Source: Synechococcus elongatus PCC 11801
GTDB lineage: Bacteria > Cyanobacteriota > Cyanobacteriia > Synechococcales > Synechococcaceae
NCBI RefSeq assembly: GCF_003846445.2
Contig: NZ_CP030139.2
Location: forward strand, 1-64,000
DNA length: 64,000 nucleotides
Direction of reading: 5' to 3'
Made by a program: the position numbers and the translations under genes. This document shows positions 55,679-62,192 of the stretch, one piece after another. Numbering within the stretch: the stretch's first letter is position 1; every line of letters begins with the position of its first letter. The notes under the pieces are model-generated. The model had not been told where the DNA came from, searched no databases, and saw only the letters and a list, made by a program, of their open reading frames with translations.

Positions 55679-56938
55679 CTAAGCGAAAATTGCGCCAAAG
55701 AACTCAACGGCTTCTTTGAGCGAATCAATGAAGCGATCGATCTCTTCGGTCGTGTTGTAGAAATAGCAACTCGCACGCGCGGTTGATTGAATCTTTAATT
55801 CTTGATGCAAGGGTTGGGTGCAGTGATGGCCTGCCCGAATCGCAATCCCTGACTGATCAAGGATGGTTGAGAGATCGTGGGGATGCACGTCGCCAGCCGT
55901 AAAAGCAGCGAGGGCAGCGCGATGCGGATCCTGTTCCGGGGTTGGCCCGTAAACTTGTATTTCCGGAATTTCGGTCAGCCGCTGGAACAGATGTTGCGTC
56001 AGTTGCTGTTCGTAAGCGTGGATGCGGTCCATGCCGATCGCAGTGAGATAGTCGATCGCAGCACCGAGGGCGATCGCTTCTCCAATCGCGGGGGTTCCTG
56101 CCTCAAATTTGTGGGGCAAATCTGCATAAGTTGCGTGATCGAGGAAGACATCCGCGATCATTTCGCCGCCACCTAGGAAAGGCGGCATTTGACGCAATAG
56201 GTCGAGCTTGCCGTAGAGGAAACCAATGCCGGTTGGGGCACACATTTTGTGACCAGAACCGACGAGCCAATCACAATCGATCGCCTGCACATCGATCGCC
56301 TGATGGGGCAGACTTTGGCAGGCATCAATCAGTACTCGCGCACCCTTGGCATGGGCGAGCTGACAGATTTCCGTGACGGGATTGCAGCAGCCCAGTGTGT
56401 TGGACACGTGGACAACTGACACCAGTTTGGTGCGACCGCTGAGGAGGCTGCGGAACTGCTCGAGGTCGAACTGTCCTGTCTCAGTCACGCCGACGAATTT
56501 CAGCACCGCTCCCGTTTTGGCCGCTACAAATTGCCAAGGGATGAGGTTGCTGTGGTGCTCCATGGCCGAGAGGATGATCTCGTCACCGGCTTGGAGAAAA
56601 TTCATGCCGAAGCTGTAGGCGACGAGGTTGATCGCTTCGCTGGCATTACGGGTGTAGACGATCTCCTGTTCGCTGCGAGCATTGACAAACCGCGCCACCT
56701 TTTGCCGCGCTGCTTCGTAGGCATCAGTTGCCTTGCCGCTGAGGGTGTGAACGCCGCGATGGACGTTGCTGTTGTAGCCCTCGTAGTAATCGACGAGGGA
56801 CTGGATCACCGCTCTCGGCTTTTGCGAGGTTGCCGCGTTGTCGAGATAGACCAATGGGTTGCCGTTGACCTGCTGATGCAGGATCGGGAAGTCGGCACGA
56901 ACCTCAGTCGCAAGATTGGTCAGGGCGATCGCAGTCAT
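55679..56938 (-). CDS. sufS: Cysteine desulfurase SufS
   Basis: SufS is a PLP enzyme that takes sulfur from cysteine for Fe-S cluster assembly. The 419-residue product has the PLP region [11 protein letters not shown] and the Schiff-base lysine in [11 protein letters not shown]. The persulfide Cys373 lies in the short loop [11 protein letters not shown], as in group II desulfurases. It starts 9 bp after the sufD stop and is the last suf gene of the operon. Confidence 0.97.
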
Positions 56939-56947
56939 GGTTCAGCT

Positions 56948-58285
56948 CTAGGAGGCAGGAGAGGATTCCGGACGTTCGGCACGGCAGCTGACGCAGCGGC
57001 TAAGAGCCTCACGCAACTGTGCAGACGGTAGTTTTTGCAGGATTTCGCCAGCGAAAGCTTCAATCAGCAAATGGGTGGCGGCTGCCTGATCCAAGCCACG
57101 GCTTTGCAGATAGAAGATCTCGTCTTCGCTGAGCTGGCTGACGGTAGCGCCGTGGCTGCACTTGACGTCATCGGCAACGATTTCCAGTTGTGGCTTGGCG
57201 TCAATCCGTGCCCGCGGAGAGAGCAGAAGATTCCGGCTCAATTGCGCCGCATCGGTCTGCTGGGCAATTTGCGGCACCACCACGCGACCGCTGAACACTG
57301 CCCGACCACGATCGCTGGCAATGCACTTGTGCAGTTGCTGGCTGCGGCCATGGGGCTGGTTGAAGAAAATGCCGCTGTGAGTATCGACGAGGCGATCGCC
57401 ATCGGCCAGACTCAAACCATCCAGAATCGTTTCGGCCTGCGAACCATTCTGAGCCGCCAGGTAATTGTGGCGCGACAGTTGAGCGCCGGTGCTGATCGCG
57501 ATGCCGTGGTAGCGACTATCCCGTTCTTGCTGCACCGTCGTTGTACCGATGTGAACAGCACGATCGCCGTCCCGTTGAACGCGGCTGTGTTGCAGCTGAG
57601 CATTGGCACCCAGCTGAATTTCCGTGACGGCATTGACGAAGTAATCCGCCGTGCAGTCGTTGCCGAGTGGCGCAAAATCTTCGATCACCGTCAGGGCACT
57701 ATTCGCGCCCAGTTCAATCAAGGCCCGGGGCTGACTAAACGCTGTATCGCTGGTGCTGCTGCTAATCCAGAGCAGATGCAGGGGTTGCGCGATCGCAGCT
57801 CCGGCAGCCACCCGAATCACAGCTGCTTGACTAAAGCCCGCCGTATTCAGCGTGGCAAACAGGTCGTCGGCCAGTAAGTTTTGGGCGATCGCAGCATCAA
57901 AGCCAACCGTCAGACTCAGTCCTTCTGGCCATTCCGTACTGGAAAGCGCCGGCTGAAATTGACCATCAACAAAGACGGCTCGCAGCGGCACGTCCGCCAG
58001 CAAAAGCGGTTCGACGAAATCTGCCTCTGCTGTCGCCGGTGCTGCCAAAAAAGATCGCTTCAGCAGCAAGGAAAGATCGGTGAACCGCCAGTCTTCAACT
58101 TTCGTCGAAGGGATTGCCAAATCAGCAAGGCGATCGCGAGCTTGGGCTTGCAACGACTCAGCCCCGGCTGCGGACTGCCCTAAATTCAGCAGTTGCTGGA
58201 GAACGGTTTGCCGTTGCTCGACGGCGGAAACCGGCGCAGCATCGGAGTTGACTTGCTCCAGAGGAGAAACCACAGAAAGCGTCAT
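56948..58285 (-). CDS. sufD: Fe-S cluster assembly protein SufD
   Basis: SufD is the SufB paralogue of the SufBC2D scaffold. The 445-residue product starts at the ATG at 58285, which overlaps the sufC stop by one base (TAATG); the frame is open 12 codons further. The C-terminal beta-helix part includes GRVVVPQIAQQTDAAQLSRNLLLS and KCSHGATVSQLSEDEIFYLQSRG, the family signature. Translational coupling to sufC suggests equal synthesis of the two. Confidence 0.96.
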   Translation of the reverse strand: MTLSVVSPLEQVNSDAAPVSAVEQRQTVLQQLLNLGQSAAGAESLQAQARDRLADLAIPSTKVEDWRFTDLSLLLKRSFLAAPATAEADFVEPLLLADVPLRAVFVDGQFQPALSSTEWPEGLSLTVGFDAAIAQNLLADDLFATLNTAGFSQAAVIRVAAGAAIAQPLHLLWISSSTSDTAFSQPRALIELGANSALTVIEDFAPLGNDCTADYFVNAVTEIQLGANAQLQHSRVQRDGDRAVHIGTTTVQQERDSRYHGIAISTGAQLSRHNYLAAQNGSQAETILDGLSLADGDRLVDTHSGIFFNQPHGRSQQLHKCIASDRGRAVFSGRVVVPQIAQQTDAAQLSRNLLLSPRARIDAKPQLEIVADDVKCSHGATVSQLSEDEIFYLQSRGLDQAAATHLLIEAFAGEILQKLPSAQLREALSRCVSCRAERPESSPAS

Positions 58286-59070
58286 TAGACTACCGCTCCT
58301 GCCAAAGCTTGGTCGACCCATTCGTAGCCGGTTTCTTCCAGCTCCAGCGCCAATTCGGGGCCACCGGTGCGAATGATCCGGCCTTCCGCCATCACATGCA
58401 CAAAGTCGGGTTTGATGTAGTCGAGCAGGCGCTGATAGTGCGTGATCAAAATTGTGGCGTTGTCAGCATTGGCTAACTGATTGACGCCGTCGGAAACGAT
58501 CTTGAGTGCGTCAATATCTAGGCCAGAATCAGTTTCGTCTAGGATTGCGAGACTCGGTTCTAGCAGCGCCATCTGCAGGATTTCGTTACGCTTTTTCTCG
58601 CCGCCCGAGAAGCCTTCGTTGACGCCACGGCCGAGAAAATCGGGATTCATTTTGACCACATCCAAGCGGGTTTCCACCAGCTCTTGGAAGTCAAAGGCAT
58701 CCAATTCTTCTTGGCCTGCAGCCTTGCGACGGGCATTGACTGCGACGCGTAAGAAATCGAGGTTGCTGACGCCAGGAATTTCTAGCGGATATTGGAAGGC
58801 CAAAAAGACCCCAGCGCGCGATCGCTCTTCCGGTTCGAGTGCCAGCAGATCCTGCCCTTTGTAGGTGACGCTGCCACCGGTGACGCGGTAGGCCGGATGC
58901 CCTGCTAAGACTTTGGACAGGGTGCTTTTGCCAGAGCCATTGCGGCCCATAATTGCGTGGATTTCACCGGCGCGTACTTCGAGATTGACGCCCTTGAGAA
59001 TGGCAGCGTCTTCAACCTCAGCTGTCAGATCCTGAATCGACAGGATCACATCACTGTTTTCGATAATCAC
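58285..59070 (-). CDS. sufC: Fe-S cluster assembly ATPase SufC
   Basis: SufC is the ABC-type ATPase that drives SufBCD conformational change. The 261-residue product has Walker [10 protein letters not shown] at residues 42-50, the signature-region [14 protein letters not shown], and [12 protein letters not shown] with Walker B. It has no membrane span. The gene is 48 bp downstream of sufB and overlaps the sufD start by one base. Confidence 0.97.
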
Positions 59071-59118: not shown

Positions 59119-60558
<1,440 letters not shown>

Positions 60559-60602
60559 GAATGGCGGTTCTCTCTCAGGGCAGCGGCAGACAGGCGATCG
60601 CG

Positions 60603-60965
60603 TTAAGCAGGGTGAGTCAGACTGCGAATTTGTTCCAGACTGATCTCTTGATTCGGCCCAGCGAATTCGTTTTCCGGCGTCAGGAACAGCATGCAGTGGC
60701 ATTCCTTGCGTTCGCGCATGGGCACGCATGGGCAATTCCAAAACGCCGCTTCCACTTCGGCTTGCTTGTCTTCGTAGTGACGACAAGGGCAGAGAGCAGC
60801 CCCCAGATCTTCCTTGTGCTTAGCCAAGCCTTCCAGCACCACGGCTGTCACCCCGGGGTCGACACAAAAATAGGTGCCGCTCCGTTTGGCGTAGGTTTCA
60901 GCAAACTTCCGCATGGTCTCCAAGCTTTTGTCGGAGGCTGAAGCGGGGCTGGTCGTCTGGGTCAT
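60603..60965 (-). CDS. ftrC: Ferredoxin-thioredoxin reductase catalytic chain
   Basis: This is the catalytic subunit of ferredoxin-thioredoxin reductase, which uses photosynthetic electrons from ferredoxin to reduce thioredoxin through a [4Fe-4S] cluster and an adjacent disulfide. The 120-residue product has the full cysteine set: [27 protein letters not shown] and ECHCMLF. It is the first gene of the minus-strand run ftrC-sufB-sufC-sufD-sufS, with 44 bp to sufB. Its promoter region contains two SufR-type operators. The variable-chain gene ftrV is not in the window. Confidence 0.96.
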
Positions 60966-60993
60966 GGGAAGAAGAGGGGAATGACGAAGTCGG

Positions 60994-60999
60994 TATAAT
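60994..60999 (+). promoter_or_regulatory. Probable -10 element of sufR
   Basis: TATAAT on the plus strand would start the sufR transcript near 61006, so that both SufR operators fall in its leader. No good -35 is visible at the usual distance. Confidence 0.4.
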
Positions 61000-61009
61000 C
61001 TGGGTTGAA

Positions 61010-61023
61010 CAACACAGACGTTG
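61010..61023. promoter_or_regulatory. SufR operator, site 1
   Basis: CAAC-acagac-GTTG is an exact match to the CAAC-N6-GTTG palindrome reported for SufR in Synechocystis. It lies downstream of the predicted ftrC/suf -10 region on the minus strand and within the predicted sufR leader. Confidence 0.8.
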
Positions 61024-61035
61024 CTTAACTACCTT

Positions 61036-61065
61036 AGGTTATTTGAACAACATCAATGTTGTCAA
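61036..61065 (-). promoter_or_regulatory. Predicted ftrC-sufBCDS promoter
   Basis: On the minus strand a consensus -35 TTGACA (61065-61060) stands 17-18 nt from ATAACC or TAACCT (61042-61036) as a weak -10. SufR site 2 lies within the spacer, so bound repressor would block RNA polymerase. Confidence 0.55.
61048..61061. promoter_or_regulatory. SufR operator, site 2
   Basis: CAAC-atcaat-GTTG is an exact CAAC-N6-GTTG palindrome, extended one pair on each side to ACAAC/GTTGT (61047-61062). It is 38 bp from site 1, centre to centre, and lies inside the predicted suf promoter. Confidence 0.85.
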
Positions 61066-61140
61066 AGTCTTGGGTTCAAGTGCGTCCGCTGCGATCGCTG
61101 CCAAGTCCATCCAGATTCCCTCTTGCATTGTAGAAAGCGA

Positions 61141-61785
61141 ATGCCCCCCGCTCACAGCCCTACAACGAAAGAAGCGATTCTCAGTCTTTTGCTAGAGCAA
61201 GGGCAAGCAACGTCTGCGGCGATCGCGGAAGCCCTCGCAATTAGTCTCCAAGCGGTGCGGCGGCATCTCAAGGATTTAGCCACAGAAGGTCTGATTGAAC
61301 AGGAAGCGGTTGTGGCTGGCATGGGACGGCCGCAATATCATTTCCGGCTGAGCCGCCAAGGGCGATCGCAGTTTCCCAGTAGCCACGATCGCTTTGCGGT
61401 GGATTTGCTGGACAGTCTCTCCGAAATGTTGCCGCCCCAAGAGTTTGAAGCAGTTTTGGCTCACCAATGGCGTCGCAAGGCCGAGGTCTATCGGCAACAG
61501 TTGGGGCAGGGCAGTCTGGCCGATCGTTTGCAACAGTTGGCTGCCTTACGGCAGGCCGAAGGCTTCATGGCCGAAGTCCATCCGGCACCCGATCGCAGCC
61601 CGCCCGCTTTTGTGATCACGGAATATAACTGTGCGATCGCCAGTGTCGCCGAGTCCTTCCCCCGCGTCTGTGACCACGAGCTGGCCTTGTTTGCCGAAAC
61701 CCTGCCCGACTGCCATGTGGAGCGCACTCACTGGCTGATCGATGGTGAACATCGCTGTGGCTACTTGATTCAACCTCAACCATGA
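61141..61785 (+). CDS. sufR: Iron-sulfur cluster biosynthesis regulator SufR
   Basis: SufR is the DeoR-type [4Fe-4S] repressor of the cyanobacterial suf operon. The product from the ATG at 61141 is 214 aa; the open frame begins at 61021, but that part holds the operators. An N-terminal helix-turn-helix (TSAAIAEALAISLQAVRRHLKDL) is followed by GMGRPQYHFRLS. The C-terminal cysteines are at 164, 177, 191 and 206, which is the C-X12-C-X13-C-X14-C arrangement of SufR. It is divergent from the ftrC-suf operon and overlaps the next gene by 4 bp (ATGA). Confidence 0.96.
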   Translation: MPPAHSPTTKEAILSLLLEQGQATSAAIAEALAISLQAVRRHLKDLATEGLIEQEAVVAGMGRPQYHFRLSRQGRSQFPSSHDRFAVDLLDSLSEMLPPQEFEAVLAHQWRRKAEVYRQQLGQGSLADRLQQLAALRQAEGFMAEVHPAPDRSPPAFVITEYNCAIASVAESFPRVCDHELALFAETLPDCHVERTHWLIDGEHRCGYLIQPQP

Positions 61786-62192
61786 CTGCTGATCCCTTTG
61801 CCAACTTGCTCAGCCTTGAGGAAGTGTCTGCGATTGAAGCGACCTTACTCCCTGCCCGCGATCGCTTTTCCCTGCGGCTGGCGGCTTATTCCCTGCGCCT
61901 CCTGCAAGCATTAGCTGCTGATCAGCAATTAGCGATCGCCGCGATCGAAGCGCCGCAACTACAGGCTTGGTTGCAACAGTCTCCCCAACTTGCTGAGGCC
62001 CTGAAGCAACAAGGTTTGACGGTCGATCAATCGTTTCTCAATTTTTGGACAAGGCTGTTGCTTTCGGCCAAGCAGCCGCTCAGTCAAGCGGCGACTGCTG
62101 CATCGATTTCACTAGAGCAACTCGATTTAACAACGGTGATCGACTGGTATCGCCAGCAATTCCAGCCTGATGCTGGGCTGCCAACGGCATGA
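61782..62192 (+). CDS. Hypothetical helical protein coupled to sufR
   Basis: The product is 136 aa, almost wholly helical and rich in Gln, Ala and Leu, with no membrane span and no cysteines. I recognise no family. Its ATG overlaps the sufR stop (ATGA) and its stop overlaps the next start (ATGA), so the three genes are translationally coupled. Any link to Fe-S regulation is inference from that coupling. Confidence 0.75.
   Translation: MTADPFANLLSLEEVSAIEATLLPARDRFSLRLAAYSLRLLQALAADQQLAIAAIEAPQLQAWLQQSPQLAEALKQQGLTVDQSFLNFWTRLLLSAKQPLSQAATAASISLEQLDLTTVIDWYRQQFQPDAGLPTA

Follow-up and report, generated by a model that had tools for sequence, protein, structure and literature searches.

In Synechococcus elongatus PCC 11801, ftrC, the gene for the catalytic subunit of the light-driven, thiol-reducing enzyme ferredoxin-thioredoxin reductase (FTR), very probably forms a single transcription unit with sufBCDS that is under ordinary repression by SufR, the product of the divergent gene sufR. 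This operon layout and the control of ftrC by SufR are well supported by the sequence together with published statements. The evidence from sequence consists of the gene order, the operators, conservation of the promoter, and an association across cyanobacteria between linkage of ftrC to suf and the presence of an operator. Coordinates refer to the window, that is, the whole 64-kb stretch of DNA that was analyzed.

ftrC is the first gene of the suf gene run

The genes and the spacer at this locus are as follows.

55679-56938, minus strand: sufS (TIGR01979, 602 bits)
56948-58321, minus strand: sufD (TIGR01981, 292 bits)
58285-59070, minus strand: sufC (TIGR01978, 370 bits)
59119-60558, minus strand: sufB (NF008773, 921 bits; TIGR01980, 675 bits)
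60559-60602, minus strand: ftrC-sufB spacer, 44 nt, with no terminator or SufR site found
60603-60965, minus strand: ftrC, FTR catalytic (beta) subunit of 120 amino acids (Pfam PF02943 and Cys motif)
61141-61785, plus strand, divergent from ftrC: sufR, Fe-S sensing repressor (TIGR02702, SufR_cyano, 360 bits)
61782-62192, plus strand: uncharacterized open reading frame downstream of sufR

The sequence-only reading of this DNA had placed ftrC at the head of a same-strand run with sufBCDS, 44 nt before sufB, and the open reading frames and family profiles bear this out: the order is ftrC-sufB-sufC-sufD-sufS, all on the minus strand. SufB, SufC and SufD pass the curated NCBIfam cut-offs and SufS passes its subfamily cut-off, and the true start of sufD is probably a few codons within the open reading frame listed. 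SufR scores well above its cut-off (360 bits versus 178.8), and its four C-terminal cysteines, the cluster ligands, are aligned across linked loci in every row listed.

FtrC scores 147 bits with FeThRed_B (PF02943), for which the cut-off is 22. The motif CPC-X16-CPC-X8-CHC provides the [4Fe-4S] cluster and the active-site disulfide of FtrC. All six of its cysteines (C59-C61, C78-C80 and C89-C91) are invariant in an alignment of eight sequences.

Neither Pfam nor NCBIfam gave a match for the open reading frame at 61782-62192. A similar open reading frame also lies 3' of sufR in picocyanobacterial loci, and that of the window is probably the ENOG5032TZB neighbor named in a recent review (PMC13421787).

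A SufR operator overlaps the one promoter conserved 5' of ftrC

The window contains exactly two perfect CAAC-N6-GTTG sites, and both are in the 175-nt intergenic region between sufR and ftrC. Genome-wide, this motif occurs at background frequency (87 sites versus 89 for a reversed control), so two sites in the sufR-ftrC gap are unexpected (P ~1e-5). The regulatory features of the gap are listed below.

61048-61061: distal SufR operator, CAACATTGATGTTG in minus-strand reading, exact match to CAAC-N6-GTTG
61010-61023: proximal SufR operator, CAACGTCTGTGTTG in minus-strand reading, exact match to CAAC-N6-GTTG
61036-61065, minus strand: putative ftrC-suf promoter, TTGACA (61065-61060), 18 nt, TAACCT (61041-61036)
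60994-60999, plus strand: putative sufR -10 box, TATAAT

In the ftrC-suf promoter, the distal operator shares nucleotides with the -35 box and occupies the spacer between this box and the -10 box. The proximal operator is just 3' of the putative sufR -10 box and within the ftrC leader. A generic scan for the sigma-70 consensus called no promoter here; the promoter emerged from comparison across loci. TTGACA-N18-TAnnnT is found upstream of ftrC in 18 of 19 linked loci with the CAAC-type operator (including the window), and in the one exception (L034) the -35 box reads TTAACA. The TATAAT box probably serves sufR, and in most loci of the CAAC type a box of the ATTATA type accompanies the proximal operator.

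The sequence-only reading had named the region with SufR sites as the only evident promoter region, and the sole promoter found to be conserved upstream of ftrC does overlap an operator. A separate promoter and terminator between ftrC and sufB had been named beforehand as an observation that would speak against the operon; a scan of the minus strand at the junction found no terminator, and the predicted folding of the junction RNA was no better than that of shuffled sequences (z = 0.99). One might still suppose that ftrC is transcribed mostly from a constitutive promoter of its own, and that SufR matters for sufBCDS only. The suf operon of Synechocystis does have two promoters, only one of which is SufR-dependent (PMC7058544), and by analogy there may be a further promoter inside ftrC. 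However, the overlap of the sole conserved upstream promoter with a SufR operator, and the lack of any SufR site found in the ftrC-sufB gap, make a SufR-independent ftrC improbable.

A comparative screen in 2009 predicted two stem-loops in the region between sufR and ftrC (cluster 80 of PMC2662882), and the repeats there could accordingly be read as a structured RNA element and not as operators. We consider this very improbable, because both inverted repeats fall on known SufR operators and on promoter boxes, and one of them is upstream of the likely transcription start. The RNA-element reading was dropped in favor of operators.

Linkage of ftrC to suf is accompanied by a SufR site

The sequence-only reading had called for a search for ftrC next to sufB in other cyanobacteria, and the arrangement proved to be common. 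Whole-genome searches for FtrC, SufR and SufB covered 386 genomes of the phylum. By reading of the tables, ten families have ftrC in the interval from sufR to sufB; in many others, including family f7 (Nostocaceae, by the named rows of the tree), it is located elsewhere. Of 80 named FtrC loci, 49 are linked to suf and 31 are not. A SufR site is present within 170 nt upstream of ftrC in 49/49 linked loci and in 0/31 unlinked loci, for which 400 nt upstream, or as far as the contig reached, was searched (Fisher 7e-23, for related genomes that are not independent). Another 49 unlinked ftrC loci from the search of the phylum contained neither type of operator in the stretch fetched. Among linked loci of the CAAC type, all 19 (window included) have at least one SufR site in the sufR-ftrC gap, and as a positive control, a SufR site was present in 19/20 sufR-sufB gaps where ftrC is unlinked.

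The order ftrC-sufB persists across many families, with gaps of 8 to 250 nt and an operator always present. On a tree of 165 FtrC rows, which rests on a short alignment and has many weak forks, the linked state requires 2 changes, compared to 55 in shuffles. The simplest reading of this tree would be one gain of linkage and one loss, the latter in the Acaryochloris-Thermosynechococcus group. One genome (G027) has two copies of ftrC (L021/L050 and L049): the copy in the suf operon has a SufR site, and the copy elsewhere has none. No FtrC was found in phage records.

An apparently different operator in picocyanobacteria

In one family (f19), the 20 linked loci (L051-L070) each contain exactly one GAAAC-N6-GTTTC in the sufR-ftrC gap, and CAAC-N6-GTTG is found in none of these gaps. 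Conversely, no GAAAC-N6-GTTTC was found in the CAAC-type loci. The motif retains the AAC-N6-GTT core and its spacing. SufR of this family is ~41-47% identical to SufR of the window and keeps the four C-terminal cysteines. Allowing at most one mismatch, the extended motif was present in 23/23 f19 genomes with SufR and 0/10 without, a hand count from tables over the f19 genomes in both searches, in which related genomes are not independent. From these patterns we infer that SufR binds the GAAAC-N6-GTTTC sites. The family appears to comprise marine-type picocyanobacteria (marine Synechococcus, Cyanobium and relatives of Prochlorococcus), an assignment based in part on loss of FTR, which is known for Prochlorococcus (PMC9025218).

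A second GAAAC-N6-GTTTC is located beside the gene for a group-2 sigma factor (TIGR02997) in nine loci (L112-L117, L119, L120 and L122), and in 8/9 of these a gene for an RluB-like pseudouridine synthase flanks the site on its opposite side. We tentatively propose, with slightly less than even confidence, that in this family SufR and its operator co-evolved to ACGAAAC-N6-GTTTCGT in place of CAAC-N6-GTTG, and that SufR gained the group-2 sigma-factor gene as a second target. If so, Fe-S status in these organisms would influence both ftrC-suf and transcription globally. A search of the literature, with RegPrecise and bioRxiv outside its scope, found nothing relevant to a GAAAC-N6-GTTTC operator, and the change is apparently undescribed. 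Because the operator differs, a search based on the classical motif CAAC-N6-GTTG would overlook SufR targets in this family.

The motif also occurs in other contexts. In four f19 genomes (L124, L125, L126 and L130) it lies in a sufR-sufB gap in which no ftrC open reading frame was seen, as would be expected if the operon had lost ftrC. Other copies, near an open reading frame resembling a response regulator (L128) or inside open reading frames (L129 and L131), are possibly chance matches.

A model for co-production of FtrC and its loading machinery, and its reach

We propose that SufR carrying its [4Fe-4S] cluster would occupy the two CAAC-N6-GTTG operators in the sufR-ftrC gap. Since one operator takes in part of the ftrC-suf -35 box and the other lies in the ftrC leader, close to the -10 box of sufR, binding would silence transcription in both directions. 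When the cluster is reduced, damaged or unassembled, SufR would leave the operators, and expression of ftrC, sufBCDS and sufR would all increase. FtrC, a client for a [4Fe-4S] cluster, would then be made alongside the machinery that loads it. A physiological benefit of this co-production is our inference, and control of FtrC by SufR may be adaptive, in that apo-FtrC is made with its loading machinery, or may be a passenger effect.

Under the latter alternative, ftrC came to lie between the suf operators and sufB a single time and has since been inherited in place; it is co-transcribed, but its control by SufR serves no specific purpose. This explanation accepts the operon mechanism and disagrees only on purpose. 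It is favored by the history of about one gain and one loss, by the failure of any unlinked ftrC to retain a SufR site, and by ftrV, which in the same genome (PF02941, 119 bits; G000:C1:1042498) is unlinked, ~1 Mb from ftrC, and has no SufR site found near it. On the other hand, the gene order has been kept across many families despite variable gaps, always with an operator, even where the operator sequence changed. This persistence suggests some constraint, although suf by itself would be reason enough for the operators to be kept. We consider a functionless passenger a serious possibility, if a little short of an even chance.

SufR repression of the ftrC-suf unit, whatever its purpose, has limited reach. 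We rejected a universal SufR-ftrC regulon, as 0/80 unlinked ftrC loci have a SufR-type site; for the same reason, FTR function does not in general require wiring to SufR. Because ftrC is under suf operators only beside suf, and ftrV is free of sites, the wiring is lineage-specific and concerns only the catalytic subunit, and more FtrC alone may not increase FTR activity. The earlier suggestion that redox signaling from photosystem I is tied to Fe-S status is supported only in part: ftrC does stand behind SufR operators, but ftrV and the unlinked ftrC genes do not. A link between SufR and FTR is to be expected only where ftrC stands behind suf operators. In Trichodesmium, addition of iron increases expression of FTR genes and decreases that of suf (PMC12090762), a response that, by analogy, would be consistent with such dependence on lineage.

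Comparison with known systems

The ftrC-suf arrangement and the proposed link to SufR were already known and are common to many cyanobacteria, and the sequence-only reading was mistaken in treating the link as new. Insertion of ftrC between sufR and sufB was described in 2009 for Synechococcus PCC 6301 (PMC2662882), and a 2026 FEMS review notes that ftrC commonly neighbors sufBCDS in cyanobacteria (PMC13421787). The same review describes ftrC of PCC 7942 as co-transcribed with suf and, with reference to RegPrecise and a 2025 preprint (doi 10.1101/2025.07.21.665879), names SufR as implicated in its regulation. The chemistry of SufR has been published elsewhere. Our results confirm that Fe-S cluster supply is linked to the ferredoxin-thioredoxin relay, a connection that had been published but only lightly tested.

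The closest systems are those of S. elongatus PCC 6301 and PCC 7942 (PMC2662882, PMC13421787), which have the same sufR / ftrC-sufB order and from which we found no difference of substance. In Synechocystis PCC 6803 (Wang 2004 and Shen 2007, as cited in PMC13421787), the SufR-sufBCDS regulon shares the divergent sufR, the CAAC-N6-GTTG operators in the gap that separates sufR from the operon, and the order sufBCDS. It differs in that the window has ftrC inserted as the first gene; no ftrC is at this position in Synechocystis or Microcystis (PMC2662882). Lastly, FtrC of the window resembles other FTR catalytic subunits (PF02943) in its Cys motif and length but differs in the location of its gene in the suf operon, which is specific to certain lineages.
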